Source of the DNA: an uncultured Bacteroidota bacterium
GTDB taxonomy: Bacteria; Bacteroidota; Bacteroidia; Flavobacteriales; Flavobacteriaceae
Assembly: GCA_902535165.1 (NCBI GenBank)
Contig: CACASE010000008.1
Coordinates: forward strand, 1-64,000
DNA: 64,000 nt
Direction: 5' to 3'
Shown: piece by piece, positions 3,310-8,985 of the stretch
Numbering within the stretch: the first letter of the stretch is position 1
How the letters are laid out: each line of letters starts with the position of its first letter
Notes under the pieces: model-generated
Databases searched by the model: none
Told to the model about the DNA's origin: nothing
What the model saw: the letters and a program-made list of their open reading frames with translations, nothing else
Position numbers and translations under genes: made by a program

Positions 3310-4668
3310 TTGGAAATTATTAGATCATACATTTCAAAAAAACAAGAATCCACAAGCTTAGCCTTTTTTAGGTTAAGCTTTGGCTTGTTAATGACTTACA
3401 GTATAATTAGGTTTTGGCTGAAAGGTTGGATTAAAGAAATGTATATTGACCCCTCTTTTCATTTTACTTTTTATGGATTTGAATGGGTTAAACCTTTAGA
3501 GGAGTATACTTATTTGCTATTTATAATTTGTGGATTGTCAGCATTTTTTGTTGCAATTGGTTTCAAATATTATCTTTCTATTATTACCTTCTTTTTATCT
3601 TTTACTTACATTGAATTGATGGATAAAACCACCTATCTAAATCATTATTATTTTGTTAGTATCCTAAGTTTTCTTTTAATTTTTCTACCAGCAAATTCAT
3701 CATATTCAGTTGATTCATATTTAAGTAAAAAATCATTTTCTCACACTCCAAAATGGTGTGTTGATAGTATTAAACTTTTACTTTTTATCGTTTACTTCTA
3801 TGCTGGGCTGGCAAAAATTAATAAAGATTGGCTCATAGAGGCTCAACCTCTCAAAATATGGCTCACAACAGGTAGCTATGATTTACCAATAATTGGATCA
3901 AGTTTGATGCAACAAGAATGGTTTCATTATTTTATGAGTTGGGGAGGTATGTTTTATGATTTACTAATTCCATTTATTTTATTATACCACAGAACAAGAA
4001 TTTTTGGGTTTTTATTGGTTATATTTTTTCACATTTTTACCGTAATCCTATTTCCTATTGGTATGTTTCCCTACATCATGATAATTTCATCATTAATTTT
4101 CTTTACATCGAAAACTCATAAAAAAATATTAGAAATAGTAACAAAACCATTTAAAAAAATAATTCATAATGTTAGAGAAATTGATGCTATAAATATTAAA
4201 AGAGAAAAATTTGCTATTACGATAGTAATAGTATTTTTTATAATACAAATACTTTTTCCATTTCGATATGCATTGTATCCCGGTGAACTTTTTTGGAATG
4301 AACAAGGTTATAGATTTTCATGGCGTGTAATGCTTATGGAAAAAAGAGGTTATACAACATTCAAAATTGTTGACAAAGAAAACGAAACATCATTTTATGT
4401 AATGAATGATGAGTTTTTAACTGAATTTCAAGAAAGACAAATGAGTTTTCAGCCTGATTTCATTCTTGAATATGCCCATTTCCTTGGTGACCATTACAAA
4501 GAAAAAGGTTATAATGACATAGAAGTTTATGCAGAGAGTTATGTTGCTTTAAATGGGAGATTAAGTAAAAAGTTTATTGACCCTACTGTTGATCTATTAA
4601 AGGAAGATAGAGGTTTTAAAAATAAAAGTTGGATTATACCACTCAATGAAAAAATTAATAAGTTATAG
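3310..4668 (+). CDS. HTTM-domain protein, vitamin K-dependent gamma-carboxylase homologue
   Basis: A 452-residue multi-pass membrane protein homologous over its full length to vitamin K-dependent gamma-glutamyl carboxylase. The N-terminal HTTM domain carries the conserved ELMDKTTYLNHYYF block (about residues 102-115) and YFYAGLAKINKDW (about 162-173), whose first lysine aligns by eye with the catalytic Lys218 of human GGCX. A YRFSW motif begins a C-terminal globular part that ends FIDPTVDLLKEDRGF, again as in GGCX. The start is TTG at 3310, 22 bases after the imelysin stop; its 3' end overlaps the TonB receptor start by 23 bases. Bacterial members are of uncertain activity; carboxylation, quinol epoxidation or another role are all possible. 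Confidence 0.88.
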   Translation: MEIIRSYISKKQESTSLAFFRLSFGLLMTYSIIRFWLKGWIKEMYIDPSFHFTFYGFEWVKPLEEYTYLLFIICGLSAFFVAIGFKYYLSIITFFLSFTYIELMDKTTYLNHYYFVSILSFLLIFLPANSSYSVDSYLSKKSFSHTPKWCVDSIKLLLFIVYFYAGLAKINKDWLIEAQPLKIWLTTGSYDLPIIGSSLMQQEWFHYFMSWGGMFYDLLIPFILLYHRTRIFGFLLVIFFHIFTVILFPIGMFPYIMIISSLIFFTSKTHKKILEIVTKPFKKIIHNVREIDAINIKREKFAITIVIVFFIIQILFPFRYALYPGELFWNEQGYRFSWRVMLMEKRGYTTFKIVDKENETSFYVMNDEFLTEFQERQMSFQPDFILEYAHFLGDHYKEKGYNDIEVYAESYVALNGRLSKKFIDPTVDLLKEDRGFKNKSWIIPLNEKINKL

Positions 4669-7063
4669 CGTTTTTTTATTTTACATTAGCTTTAGTTTTG
4701 GACAAAACAGAGTCTCAGGATATGTAATTGATAACAACTCCAATCTTCCGATTGAAAATGTTGCCATTTATGATAATTTGAGTGATAAAATTTATTACAC
4801 TGATAGTGCTGGATTTTTTGATTTTATTAAAAAGGAAAGAACAGTTGAAATTGTTTTTTTTATTGAGGGTTACAACTTATTTAGTAAACCTCTTGGAGAT
4901 GATAATAACAATTTGATCATTAAACTAAATTCAAAGATTGAACAACTTGATGAAGTTGTGGTTAGAGCTAATAAAAAAAAGATTTTTCAAATTATAAGAA
5001 TGCAAGACTATGAAGGAACCTCTGTTTTTGCAGGAAAAAAAAACGAAGTGATTTTATTAGATTTATCAATGGCTAACCTTGCATCAAATAATGCAAGACA
5101 AATCTATAATCAAATTCCTGGGTTAAATATTTATCAAAATGATGATGCTGGGCTACAGCTAAATATTGGTGGAAGAGGTCTTAACCCAAATCGAACATCA
5201 AATTTTAATACAAGACAAAATGGTTATGATATTAGTGCTGATGCATTAGGATATCCTGAAAGCTATTACACCCCCCCTGCTGAAGGTTTACAAGAAATAC
5301 AAATTTTGAGAGGTGCAGCTTCTTTGCAGTATGGAACACAGTTTGGAGGTTTAATAAACTTTATCATGAAGAAATCTAATCCAGATAAAAAATTAGATAT
5401 TATTGCTAGGAATACCGTTGGGTCAAACAATCTATACACCAATTTTACAAGCGTTAGTTCTAATGGTAGTAAACTCAACTATTATGGTTATGTTAATTAT
5501 AAAAAAGGGAACGGATTCAGAGATAACTCAAATTTTGAATCCTTAAATACTTATCAGTTTTTTGAATATAATTTTAATGAATCGACTAGCTTGAGTTCAG
5601 AATTTACATATTTAAACTATTTATGTAAGCAAGCAGGTGGTCTTAGTGATGACATGTTTAAGTCGGATCCTTATCAAAGTAACAGATCTAGAAACTGGTT
5701 TGAAGTGGACTGGCTACTTTATAATTTAAAATTCAAAAAATCGTTTTCAAGCAGAACTAATTTTAGTTTTAGTTTTTTTGGTCTTGAAGCAAAAAGAAAT
5801 TCATTAGGCTTTAGAACAAATCGAGTTAGCCAAATCGATTCCGGTGAAGAAAGAGATTTAATTAAGGGTAATTTTTCAAACTTTGGCTTTGAATCCAAGT
5901 TGCTGACAAACTATAAAGCTCTAGGTAAAAAGTCTTTTTTTCTAATTGGCCTAAAATATTACAATTCATTTTCATCAAGTATTCAAGGACCAGGATCAAA
6001 TGGGTCTGATGCAAATTTTGATTTTCAAAATTCTCTTTATCCAAACTACACAAACCAATCTAATTACACATATCCAAATCAAAATATCGCTTTCTTTGGA
6101 GAAAACATTTTTTATTTAAGTGATAAAATCTCATTAACTCCTGGATTTAGATTTGAAAATATTGTAACAAAAAGTGATGGGTTTTACAGTAAAATTAACC
6201 TAGATGGAGCCGGAAATGTTATATACAATGAAAAGTTTAAAGGGAATGATGAAAAAAGAAGAAATTTTTTACTACTTGGTTTAGGTTTTAGTTTTAAAGT
6301 AAATAACAACATTGAATTGTATTCAAACATTAGTCAAAATTATAGATCTGTAACATTTGCAGATATAAGTATAATAAATCCAGCATATGCAATCAACCCT
6401 GAAATTGATGATGAAAAAGGATACACTTTTGATTTGGGATTCAGAGGGAATATAAATAAAAAAATATCATACGACTCAAACATTTTTTTATTGCTTTATG
6501 AGGATAGAATTGGTTTTATACAAAAGGTTTTTCCTGACGGCAATGTAAAAAGTGAGAGAGGAAATGTTGGAAATGCAAGGATTAGTGGAATTGAGTCACT
6601 TTTCGATTTTGATTTAAATGAAATTGCATTTAAAAATAATTTTATCGATCTAAATTATTATATAAATTATTCTTATATAAATTCTAAATACCTCCAATCT
6701 GATGAAGTTGGCATTGAGGACAATGAAGTTGAGTTCGTTCCAAAACATAACTTGAAGACTGGAGTCAAGTTTGGATACAAAAATTTATCTTTAAATTTTC
6801 AATACTCGTTTGTATCGAGTCAATTTACTGACTCATCAAATGCAGTAACTGGGAATTTGAGCGGAGTAATAGGTCAAATACCATCATATAAAATAGCTGA
6901 TCTTTCTATGTCATATAAACTAAAAAATATTAGTTTTGAAGCAGGTGTTAACAATTTATTCAACGAGAAATATTTTACTAGAAGAGCAACAGGATATCCC
7001 GGACCTGGGATTATTCCTTCAGCTCCTCAAAATTCCTATTTAACTATACAAATTAGATTGTAA
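4646..7063 (+). CDS. TonB-dependent receptor, FecA-like
   Basis: An 805-residue outer-membrane receptor. It has a signal peptide ending SFGQ, a carboxypeptidase-like regulatory domain (about residues 20-105, beginning RVSGYVIDNNSNLPIENV), a plug domain with NIGGRGLNPNRTSNFNTRQ and IQILRGAASLQYGTQFGGLINF, and a 22-strand-type barrel ending in the aromatic-rich C-terminus of outer-membrane proteins (TIQIRL). The plug resembles iron(III) dicitrate/siderophore receptors. It overlaps the HTTM gene by 23 bases and the DCC gene by 1 base, so it is surely co-transcribed. No SusD partner is present, which favours iron-chelate or cofactor import over glycan import. The exact substrate cannot be read from sequence. 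Confidence 0.92.
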   Translation: MKKLISYSVFLFYISFSFGQNRVSGYVIDNNSNLPIENVAIYDNLSDKIYYTDSAGFFDFIKKERTVEIVFFIEGYNLFSKPLGDDNNNLIIKLNSKIEQLDEVVVRANKKKIFQIIRMQDYEGTSVFAGKKNEVILLDLSMANLASNNARQIYNQIPGLNIYQNDDAGLQLNIGGRGLNPNRTSNFNTRQNGYDISADALGYPESYYTPPAEGLQEIQILRGAASLQYGTQFGGLINFIMKKSNPDKKLDIIARNTVGSNNLYTNFTSVSSNGSKLNYYGYVNYKKGNGFRDNSNFESLNTYQFFEYNFNESTSLSSEFTYLNYLCKQAGGLSDDMFKSDPYQSNRSRNWFEVDWLLYNLKFKKSFSSRTNFSFSFFGLEAKRNSLGFRTNRVSQIDSGEERDLIKGNFSNFGFESKLLTNYKALGKKSFFLIGLKYYNSFSSSIQGPGSNGSDANFDFQNSLYPNYTNQSNYTYPNQNIAFFGENIFYLSDKISLTPGFRFENIVTKSDGFYSKINLDGAGNVIYNEKFKGNDEKRRNFLLLGLGFSFKVNNNIELYSNISQNYRSVTFADISIINPAYAINPEIDDEKGYTFDLGFRGNINKKISYDSNIFLLLYEDRIGFIQKVFPDGNVKSERGNVGNARISGIESLFDFDLNEIAFKNNFIDLNYYINYSYINSKYLQSDEVGIEDNEVEFVPKHNLKTGVKFGYKNLSLNFQYSFVSSQFTDSSNAVTGNLSGVIGQIPSYKIADLSMSYKLKNISFEAGVNNLFNEKYFTRRATGYPGPGIIPSAPQNSYLTIQIRL

Positions 7064-7455
7064 TGGTGAAAAAAGATATAATTATTTATGATGGAGTTTG
7101 TAAAATGTGTAATGCATTTTTTAGATGGGTTCACAAAAATGATAAAAAAAATGTTTTCATGTTCACAAATTTTCAAAGTGATTACACCTCTAATAAAATG
7201 GATATTTTAAAGGATTCAAATTCTATAGCAGTGATTTTAGCAGATGGTAAGGTATTAAGAAAAACAAATGCAATTAAACATGTTTTAAAAGAAACTAAAA
7301 AATTCGTAATTATCAGTTTAATTTTAAAAATTCTACCAAATTTTATTTCAAATTTCTTCTATAATATTGTAGCAAGTTTACGATACTTCTTGTTTGGAAA
7401 ATATGACAACTGCCCTATTCTTGATGAAAAATACAAATCCAAATTTCTAAATTAA
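7063..7455 (+). CDS. DUF393 (DCC family) thiol-disulfide oxidoreductase-like protein
   Basis: A 130-residue protein of the DCC family, named for the DxxCxxC motif, here DGVCKMC (Asp10, Cys13, Cys16). The family is predicted to have a thioredoxin-like fold and thiol redox activity. The ATG shares its A with the stop of the TonB receptor (TAATG), marking it as the last gene of the imelysin operon. DCC proteins are often neighbours of, or fused to, HTTM proteins, so this one probably serves the HTTM protein three genes upstream in redox chemistry; that partnership is an inference. No signal peptide is visible. Confidence 0.88.
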   Translation: MVKKDIIIYDGVCKMCNAFFRWVHKNDKKNVFMFTNFQSDYTSNKMDILKDSNSIAVILADGKVLRKTNAIKHVLKETKKFVIISLILKILPNFISNFFYNIVASLRYFLFGKYDNCPILDEKYKSKFLN

Positions 7456-7492
7456 AAAAGGAACTTAGATATTTGAGATCTATCCAAGTTCC
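7455..7492 (-). terminator. Leftward intrinsic terminator in the gap before the heme operon
   Basis: Read on the minus strand, a 13-base stem AGGAACTTGGATA / TATCTAAGTTCCT (one G-U pair) with a 9-base loop is followed directly by six T residues. On the plus strand the G-U becomes an A-C mismatch and no T run follows, so the element is built for leftward transcription although no leftward gene lies here. It would end a short RNA started within 7500-7731. Confidence 0.65.
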
Positions 7493-7563
7493 TCTCAAGG
7501 TGTGAACTAGAAAAAACTATAATAAATTAACTAAATAAATACTTATTTAGAATTATTATAAAT
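7455..7563 (-). ncRNA. Candidate small RNA upstream of the heme operon
   Basis: A possible transcript of about 110 bases read leftward. Support: a -7 element TAAGTTTG on the minus strand at 7570-7577, a start site expected near 7563, and the leftward terminator at 7455-7492 with six T residues. A TTTT rather than TTTG lies 19 bases before the -7 element, so the promoter is imperfect. An operator-like repeat (7543-7565) covers the expected start site, which would make the RNA responsive to the same regulator as the iron genes. No open reading frame of useful length is present. This is a prediction only. Confidence 0.35.
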
Positions 7564-7565
7564 AA
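7543..7565. promoter_or_regulatory. Operator-like inverted repeat, copy 2
   Basis: TTATTTAGA-N5-TATAAATAA, identical to the core of the repeat at 842-866 except for one base in the right arm and the centre (ATTAT). It lies about 166 bases upstream of the predicted hemA start site but right on the expected start site of the leftward candidate RNA. Confidence 0.5.
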
Positions 7566-7569
7566 AGGT

Positions 7570-7577
7570 CAAACTTA
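7570..7577 (-). promoter_or_regulatory. Leftward -7 element TAAGTTTG
   Basis: A full match to TAnnTTTG on the minus strand, in a gap where the only leftward element is a terminator 80 bases downstream. The -33 position has TTTT instead of TTTG at the expected 19-base spacing. Confidence 0.4.
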
Positions 7578-7603
7578 TAATAATTAATTCATTTTAAAAA
7601 GAA

Positions 7604-7686
7604 CTTTTAGCGATATTATTATTTAGAATCATTATATATAAGCTCTGGGAACTGATAGCTATACTTTTAGACCTTTTAGCGTTATT
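7604..7686 (+). repeat. Direct repeat upstream of hemA
   Basis: CTTTTAGCGATATT (7604-7617) and CTTTTAGCGTTATT (7673-7686) match at 13 of 14 bases, 69 bases apart. A third partial copy, CTTTTAG, is at 7664-7670, so the downstream copies are spaced 9 bases apart. Tandem or spaced direct repeats just upstream of a promoter are typical of activator sites; the second copy ends 20 bases before the hemA -7 element. Confidence 0.45.
7619..7641. promoter_or_regulatory. Operator-like inverted repeat, copy 3
   Basis: TTATTTAGA-N5-TATATATAA. The left arm is identical to the copies at 843-865 and 7543-7565; the right arm differs at two positions from the best copy. It lies about 90 bases upstream of the predicted hemA transcription start. 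Confidence 0.4.
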
Positions 7687-7706
7687 TCTGGATATCCGTT
7701 AAAGGG

Positions 7707-7731: not shown

Positions 7732-8985
7732 TTGGTTGGATTAATCAGTATTAACTACAAAATAGCTCCTTTAGAAATAAGAGAGAAATTTTACTTCGAC
7801 TCTTCCGAAAAAATTGTGTTCAATAATTTACTAAAGAAAAAGGTTGGAGCTGAAGGTTTGATGATTATTTCAACTTGCAATAGAACAGAAATCTATTTTG
7901 AGTTTGAAAATCATGTTGGAGAGGAAAATAAGTTTCTACATTCAATTGTTAAAGAGCTGGTTGAATTTAAAAGATTTAAAGATAGTCTCTCCCCTTACCT
8001 GAACAATTCGATTGGATCATACGATGTGGCCAATCACTTATTTCGACTAGTTTCAGGTTTAGAGTCAATGATCATTGGCGAATTTCAAATCGTTGAACAA
8101 CTAAAAGATGCCTATTACTTTTCAAAAAAACATAAAATGCTGGGTCCAATTCTAAAAAGAATGATTCAAAAATCTTTAGAAACTGGAAAATATATCAGAA
8201 CTAATACAGACATTGGAAGAGGTGCTGTTTCTGTAAGTTATGCAGCAGTTGAACAAATCACGAAAAAATATGACCTAACTAAATCCAATTTTTTATGTGT
8301 TGGATTGGGAGAAACATCTAAGTTGTCAATTCGCCATCTTCACCAAAAAAAGATTAAAAATATTAAAATTTGTAACCGCACTGAGTCAAAAGCAAAACTC
8401 TTCAGTAAAGAATTAGGCTATAGTAGCGTAAAATTTGAGGATTTTAAAAAGGAAATTAAAAAAAGTGACGTTGTATTTTTTTCAACTAGCTCAAAAACCA
8501 CTTTACTAAACAAATCTGATTTGGAAAAAATTATGAAAAATAGAAGAAAAAAACTTCTTCTAGTCGATCTTTCTGTACCTCGAAATTTAGAATCAGATTT
8601 ATATGAATTAAAAAATGTTGAAGTTATTAATGTAGATAATCTAAAGGACGCCGTCAATGATAATTATAAAAAAAGAAAGGGTGAAATAATAAAGGCTGAA
8701 TTATATATTGAAGAGTTCCTCGTTGAATTTGATGATTGGACAAATGCTCGTCTTTTGAGACCTTCAATTTTGTCTTTAAAAAAACAAGTCAGGGAATTGA
8801 TTGTTAATGAAACTTTAAATTATAACTCTGAAAACAAAAATGGAGATGACTTTAACTCTCACCTCAACAAAGTTTATGATAAGTTTTCAAATAATCTTGT
8901 AAAAAAAATTAAAAGAGCTAGTAATAACGGAAAAGATGAAAAAGCAATTGAAATTATAAACCAAATTTTTCTGAATGAAAAATAG
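7732..8985 (+). CDS. hemA: Glutamyl-tRNA reductase
   Basis: A 417-residue cytoplasmic enzyme that reduces glutamyl-tRNA to glutamate-1-semialdehyde, the first committed step of C5 heme synthesis. The catalytic cysteine is Cys49 in IISTCNRTEIYFE. GLESMIIGEFQIVEQLKDAY and RGAVSVSYAAVE are family signatures; the middle part is an NADPH-binding Rossmann domain and the C-terminus is the helical dimerisation region. The start is TTG at 7732; the next residues, VGLISINYKIAPLEIREK, align with the family N-terminus, so this start is likely. It overlaps hemC by 11 bases and opens a nine-gene operon. Confidence 0.97.
   Translation: MVGLISINYKIAPLEIREKFYFDSSEKIVFNNLLKKKVGAEGLMIISTCNRTEIYFEFENHVGEENKFLHSIVKELVEFKRFKDSLSPYLNNSIGSYDVANHLFRLVSGLESMIIGEFQIVEQLKDAYYFSKKHKMLGPILKRMIQKSLETGKYIRTNTDIGRGAVSVSYAAVEQITKKYDLTKSNFLCVGLGETSKLSIRHLHQKKIKNIKICNRTESKAKLFSKELGYSSVKFEDFKKEIKKSDVVFFSTSSKTTLLNKSDLEKIMKNRRKKLLLVDLSVPRNLESDLYELKNVEVINVDNLKDAVNDNYKKRKGEIIKAELYIEEFLVEFDDWTNARLLRPSILSLKKQVRELIVNETLNYNSENKNGDDFNSHLNKVYDKFSNNLVKKIKRASNNGKDEKAIEIINQIFLNEK

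Follow-up and report, generated by a model that had tools for sequence, protein, structure and literature searches.

The gap upstream of hemA in the window, by which we mean the whole stretch of 64,000 nucleotides analysed here, very probably encodes a conserved structured RNA that is read leftward. On balance, we favour the view that this is a Fur-repressed, trans-acting, RyhB-like small RNA of about 110 nt that would block start-codon regions, with actA as the best candidate target. A first-pass annotation, made from the letters alone, had proposed an iron-controlled small RNA at this position; below we ask what comparison with related genomes adds to that proposal, and which other readings of the gap have to be weighed.

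Results

A predicted structured RNA on the minus strand

The window belongs to a 1.3 Mb genome of an uncultured marine Bacteroidota lineage, which is incomplete and in 40 contigs. Its named relatives, a mix of MAGs and genomes from single cells, bear the labels uncultured Bacteroidetes, Flavobacteriaceae or Cryomorphaceae. For comparison, hemA loci were gathered from 23 genus genomes, all of them incomplete, and from public genome contigs. In the window, 276 bases separate a DCC1-like gene from hemA, both rightward, and this gap holds no leftward open reading frame of at least 60 aa, as expected from the earlier remark that there is no leftward gene here. The features of the region are as follows.

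7063 to 7455, plus strand: DCC1-like thiol-disulfide oxidoreductase gene (Pfam), converging on the predicted RNA
7454 to 7459, minus strand: terminator U-tract, overlapping the DCC stop codon (7453-7455); a U-rich minus-side tail is present in 11/11 genomes
7456 to 7565, minus strand: predicted small RNA of about 110 nt, from an 11-genome alignment and covariance model, starting near 7565 and ending in the U-tract
7460 to 7492, minus strand: terminator hairpin, from folding, covariation and strand comparison
7499 to 7516, minus strand: conserved unpaired stretch UUUUUUCUAGUUCACACC, the predicted target-pairing region, which pairs with the actA start region
7517 to 7525, minus strand: 3' arm of the 5' stem (UUAUUAUAG), pairing kept while loop length varies (27/23/21 nt)
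7545 to 7563, no strand: operator box1, a presumed Fur-type 7-1-7 palindrome ATTTAGAATtATTaTAAAT with 17/18 palindrome matches, just downstream of the predicted start
7553 to 7561, minus strand: 5' arm of the 5' stem (UUAUAAUAA), within the operator, pairing with 7517-7525 in 11/11 genomes
7570 to 7577, minus strand: -7 promoter element TAAGTTTG (sigma-A of Bacteroidota, TAnnTTTG)
7621 to 7639, no strand: operator box2, upstream of hemA, kept in all genus hemA loci examined
7732 to 8985, plus strand: hemA (glutamyl-tRNA reductase; Pfam GlutR_N, Shikimate_DH, GlutR_dimer), divergent neighbour of the predicted RNA

On the minus strand the hairpin reads GGAACTTGGATA / TATCTAAGTTCC and then TTTTTT, and its lone odd pair is G-U on that strand but becomes A-C when the plus strand is read, which is the geometry from which the first-pass annotation had argued that the stem works leftward only. 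Folding energy is -19.8 kcal/mol on the minus strand (z -5.0; 1/200 shuffles equally good) and -11.6 kcal/mol on the plus strand (z -2.6). A generic terminator scan omitted this hairpin because its rule allows loops of 3-8 bases and the loop here has 9. Covariation in related genomes, which had been suggested as a check, is indeed found: across 11 genomes 97.2% of cells in the terminator stem are paired and five pairs have changed on both sides, a result equalled by 0/500 shuffles, and slid controls collapse. Unprompted, RNAalifold also returned a 5' stem that joins half of the operator to UUAUUAUA[G/A], with 100% of cells paired in 11/11 genomes.

Which strand is read can be judged from the asymmetry of these changes. 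Wobble variation occurs at six pair positions and is G-U on the minus strand in every case and on the plus strand in none, where it becomes an A-C mismatch; under symmetry, the chance of such one-sidedness is 1/64. Hairpin energy is lower on the minus than on the plus strand in 11/11 genomes, and the T count of the minus-side tail equals or exceeds that of the plus side in 11/11, with a tie in two. We considered whether the hairpin might instead be the 3' end or a stabiliser of the rightward DCC mRNA, given that the DCC stop codon immediately precedes it. With plus-strand folding weaker throughout, wobbles turning into mismatches and no clear U-tract on the plus side, we give this reading hardly any credence. 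The inverted repeats might also be protein sites in a DNA regulatory block for hemA, made up of paired Fur-type boxes and a site for another protein; hemA is indeed preceded by two copies of the operator and by further conserved motifs. However, covarying stem letters with one-sided wobble are ill-suited to DNA sites, the spacing between the two arms of the 5' stem shifts by 4-6 bp without phase, and a U-tract is present, all of which makes such a block very improbable.

Promoter and start site

The leftward -7 element reported at first pass is present as TAAGTTTG at 7577-7570 on the minus strand. TA and TTTG are exact in 9/11 genomes and stand at a constant distance from the operator, while the two free letters vary (AG, TG, CT, AA). 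In Flavobacterium psychrophilum the -7 box is located at -12 to -5 (PMC9723704); by that spacing the predicted RNA would begin near 7565, and the operator would span roughly +3 to +21. The operator-like repeat that had been noted over the expected start is ATTTAGAATTATTATAAAT at 7545-7563. The -33 box is weak and imperfect in the window, as had also been said, but this is no objection to the promoter, since no -33 box is identifiable in F. johnsoniae (PMC7366714). A generic sigma-70 scan was uninformative (86 found vs 88.7 expected). The covarying stem, the minus-only wobbles, the one-sided U-tract and a TA..TTTG that is kept while its free letters vary all speak for a leftward RNA.

The promoters of the predicted RNA and of hemA stand back to back. 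The hemA promoter is probably TTTG-N19-TACTTTTA (7662-7669; clean in locus L060), with box2 covering its -33 region. Separately, a GAACCTTTAGCGTTATTTTT-like motif lies upstream of hemA at 7671-7690 and 7596-7616, and the genus has two copies, one on each side of box2. GCGTT.TTTT forms precede hemA in several other flavobacterial families (L018, L019, L021, L025, L074), and in L018 and L019, both with this form before hemA, a gene for an AraC-type regulator lies upstream on the opposite strand. The motif may be a hitherto unrecognised hemA operator.

Distribution among relatives

Eleven genus genomes carry the module between the DCC gene and hemA, one copy each and in the same layout. Read leftward, it consists of TAnnTTTG, a few bases, the near-invariant operator CTTTATTTATAATA[A/G]TTCTAAATAA (box1), an AU-rich spacer of variable length, TTATTATA[G/A], TTCTAG[T/C]TCACA, the hairpin and the T's. 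Within the unpaired stretch UUCUAG[U/C]UCACA, CUAG[U/C]UCACA is invariant in all 11. Both the hairpin and the -7 element, on whose conservation in close relatives the first-pass annotation had staked its reading, are conserved. In more distant relatives (G012, G022, G004 and L060-L073) the genes are ordered alike, and the interval from DCC to hemA has just one operator and no module.

This distribution bears on whether the hairpin is only an insulating terminator that stops leftward antisense leakage from the hemA promoter, in which case there need be no functional RNA. The hairpin does act leftward only and it faces the iron operon. If insulation were all, however, we would not expect the promoter element, the second stem and an invariant 12-nt unpaired core to be conserved along with it, nor relatives of the same gene order that lack the RNA to have no terminator in the DCC-hemA gap, as is the case. 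We regard insulation alone as quite improbable.

With a covariance model, 11/23 genus genomes each yield a single strong copy (E 1e-12 to 1e-15) and the 12 others none, the remaining matches in the genus being coding or operator noise: weak matches in G022, G012, G003, G006 and G020 (E 0.3-0.9) fall inside coding genes, and the matches in G016 and G004 correspond to copies of the operator. Under stricter filters there were 0 copies in 247 further family genomes. Within the 23 genus and 247 further family genomes searched, the predicted RNA is therefore confined to part of one genus. No Rfam family, RyhB included, matches the gap at gathering score, matches at E 3-10 being at chance level, and this agrees with the earlier view that the RNA is unrelated to RyhB by sequence.

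Operator and probable Fur-type control

Strong intergenic operator sites number four in the 1.30 Mb of this genome that we examined: box1, box2 and the following two.

845 to 863, no strand: another strong operator, flanked by the gene of a solute-binding protein that resembles Fe(III) binders and by a DUF4856/imelysin/TonB-receptor operon
G000:C1:23822 (L119:3822), no strand: the remaining strong operator, with a gene for DUF6607 on one side and one for an ABC transporter ATPase on the other

Three of the four adjoin iron-uptake genes, hemA and the predicted RNA. In 1.21 Mb of a relative (G021), copies are found in the orthologous interval between solute-binding-protein gene and TonB receptor, and as box1 and box2. 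As in Fur and PerR boxes, a 7-1-7 palindrome is of the Fur type. The genome has one gene of the Fur family (PF01475) and none of the DtxR family. Given so few operator sites, one Fur and no DtxR, the natural reading is that Fur reads the operator and that control is by iron; these counts strengthen the link to the iron genes that had been drawn at first pass, and we consider Fur-type control of the predicted RNA likely. The DUF6607 or the ABC ATPase gene at C1:23822 may also take part in the iron response. Elsewhere in the window, 3310-4668 encodes a protein resembling HTTM and vitamin-K-dependent gamma-carboxylases in an iron-type operon, flanked by an imelysin and a TonB receptor.

A candidate target

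The gene actA encodes a multihaem cytochrome c and is followed by a protein with 4Fe-4S domains; it looks like the head of an alternative complex III operon rich in haem and Fe-S. Its start codon is predicted to be TTG. The actA start region reads GAAACTAGAAAAAAC (core site AACTAGAA) in genomes with U-type RNA and AA[A/G]GCTAGAAAC (core site [AG]GCTAGAA) in those with C-type RNA, so that where the RNA has switched between U and C, the actA site has switched between A and G, in a single evolutionary split. The site is absent from G012, G022 and G004, which lack the RNA, and also from G003, G019 and G017, whose actA clusters with theirs. Predicted duplexes between RNA and actA reach -11.5 to -14.0 kcal/mol for cognate pairs and -8.1 to -9.5 kcal/mol for non-cognate ones, while actA from genomes lacking the RNA pairs weakly (-2.4 to -7.7 kcal/mol).

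How special is this match? Among 868 orthologs (own genome versus G021), actA is the only one that carries the exact core 8-mers AACTAGAA/AGCTAGAA at corresponding positions; permuted core 8-mers find a match in 45/1500 cases (3%). When duplexes are restricted to start-codon windows, the real RNA has 2 matches at -12 kcal/mol or better against a permuted mean of 0.16, and 5/323 permuted RNAs have two, a restriction chosen after the matches were seen and the only one under which the excess appears. Whole-region duplex screens of the 868 orthologs gave no excess over permuted RNAs. The target evidence for actA is hence modest, about p 0.02-0.03, with no global excess.

A CobW/G3E GTPase start site was rejected as a second target because two close relatives, G001 and G018, do not keep it intact, and an acyl-CoA dehydrogenase and other energy-ranked matches were not above permuted controls. 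The start of a DUF1800 gene (L142:2760-2800) is a weaker candidate: of the genomes that matched, the U-type ones have A and the C-type ones G, and the site is absent from G012, which lacks the RNA, and weak in G020. We know of no iron link for DUF1800.

That global screens do not rise above control would suit a Fur-controlled RNA with another role, whether through other targets or through local control of hemA or of the converging DCC/TonB operon, and so would its position, with the 3' end abutting the DCC stop codon and the promoter back to back with that of hemA. Yet the unpaired core is invariant even though it lies outside both neighbouring genes, and the actA site tracks both the U/C change and the presence or absence of the RNA. 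We therefore think another role rather unlikely, if well worth keeping in mind. That the predicted RNA acts in trans through its unpaired core seems to us a reasonably good bet from these comparisons; that it spares iron through actA is a tentative proposal.

RNA chaperones

Hfq (PF17209) was found in 0/23 genus genomes, all of them incomplete, with positive controls, and an RRM-1 protein (PF00076) likewise in 0/23, with a positive Bacteroides control. Despite the incompleteness of the genomes, 0/23 makes the absence of both proteins likely.

Discussion

How might the parts work together? In the model we lean towards, transcription of a trans-acting RNA would proceed leftward from 7565 and end at about 7456. 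In iron-rich cells, iron-bound Fur would sit on box1, directly downstream of the start, and block transcription; when iron is scarce, Fur would leave box1 and the RNA would be made. It would fold into a 5' AU stem, one arm of which is operator sequence, and the 3' terminator hairpin, leaving UUUUUUCUAGUUCACACC single-stranded to pair with start-codon regions of mRNAs and block their translation. With actA, at the head of the putative alternative complex III operon, as the best candidate, iron of the respiratory chain would be spared. What our analysis adds to the earlier likening to RyhB in function is this one specific candidate target. The structure conserved on the minus strand, its promoter element and operator, and the presence of one Fur come from sequence comparison; that the RNA is made, that it answers to iron, that Fur recognises the box and that actA is repressed are steps that we infer.

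RyhB, PrrF, FsrA, MrsI and IsrR are alike in function yet differ in both sequence and synteny (PMC9410917); the predicted RNA would add to their number. Like RyhB of the Enterobacteriaceae, the predicted RNA would be Fur-repressed, some 90-110 nt long, and equipped with a single-stranded pairing core, an intrinsic terminator and a candidate iron-rich target operon; unlike it, it has another genomic place, there is no sequence or Rfam match between the two, and RyhB is Hfq-assisted (PMC9410917) whereas no Hfq was found in the genomes here. A closer parallel in this last respect is IsrR of Staphylococcus, which works without Hfq (PMC9410917). IsrR and FsrA of Bacillus are also Fur-controlled iron-sparing RNAs of separate origin outside the Proteobacteria, but they pair with Shine-Dalgarno sequences (PMC9410917), whereas the predicted site here is the start codon; flavobacteria are without Shine-Dalgarno sites (PMC9723704). 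Rfp18 of Flavobacterium psychrophilum and GibS/FopS of Bacteroides are likewise small RNAs from the Bacteroidota, where promoters carry TAnnTTTG, but in the available portions of the reports on them they are linked to proteases and polysaccharide use rather than to Fur or iron (PMC9723704, PMC7366714, PMC11697453), and FopS/GibS are there described as binding the RRM protein RbpB, whereas no RRM protein was found here. In the literature we searched, Fur-controlled iron-sparing RNAs are from Proteobacteria and Firmicutes, with a predicted IdeR-controlled one in Mycobacterium, and none is from Bacteroidota.

It is possible, if somewhat doubtful, that we are looking at an iron-sparing small RNA of Bacteroidota that arose in one marine lineage and acts independently of Hfq and RRM chaperones. 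One arm of its 5' stem would be supplied by the Fur operator that controls it, and it would stop translation of alternative complex III by pairing at a start codon that has no Shine-Dalgarno site, the RNA and its target having changed in step. If this is true, it would provide a concrete case of small RNA action where Hfq and Shine-Dalgarno sites are absent, and a separately evolved iron-sparing RNA in ocean flavobacteria would reveal how iron-poor seawater shapes respiration.
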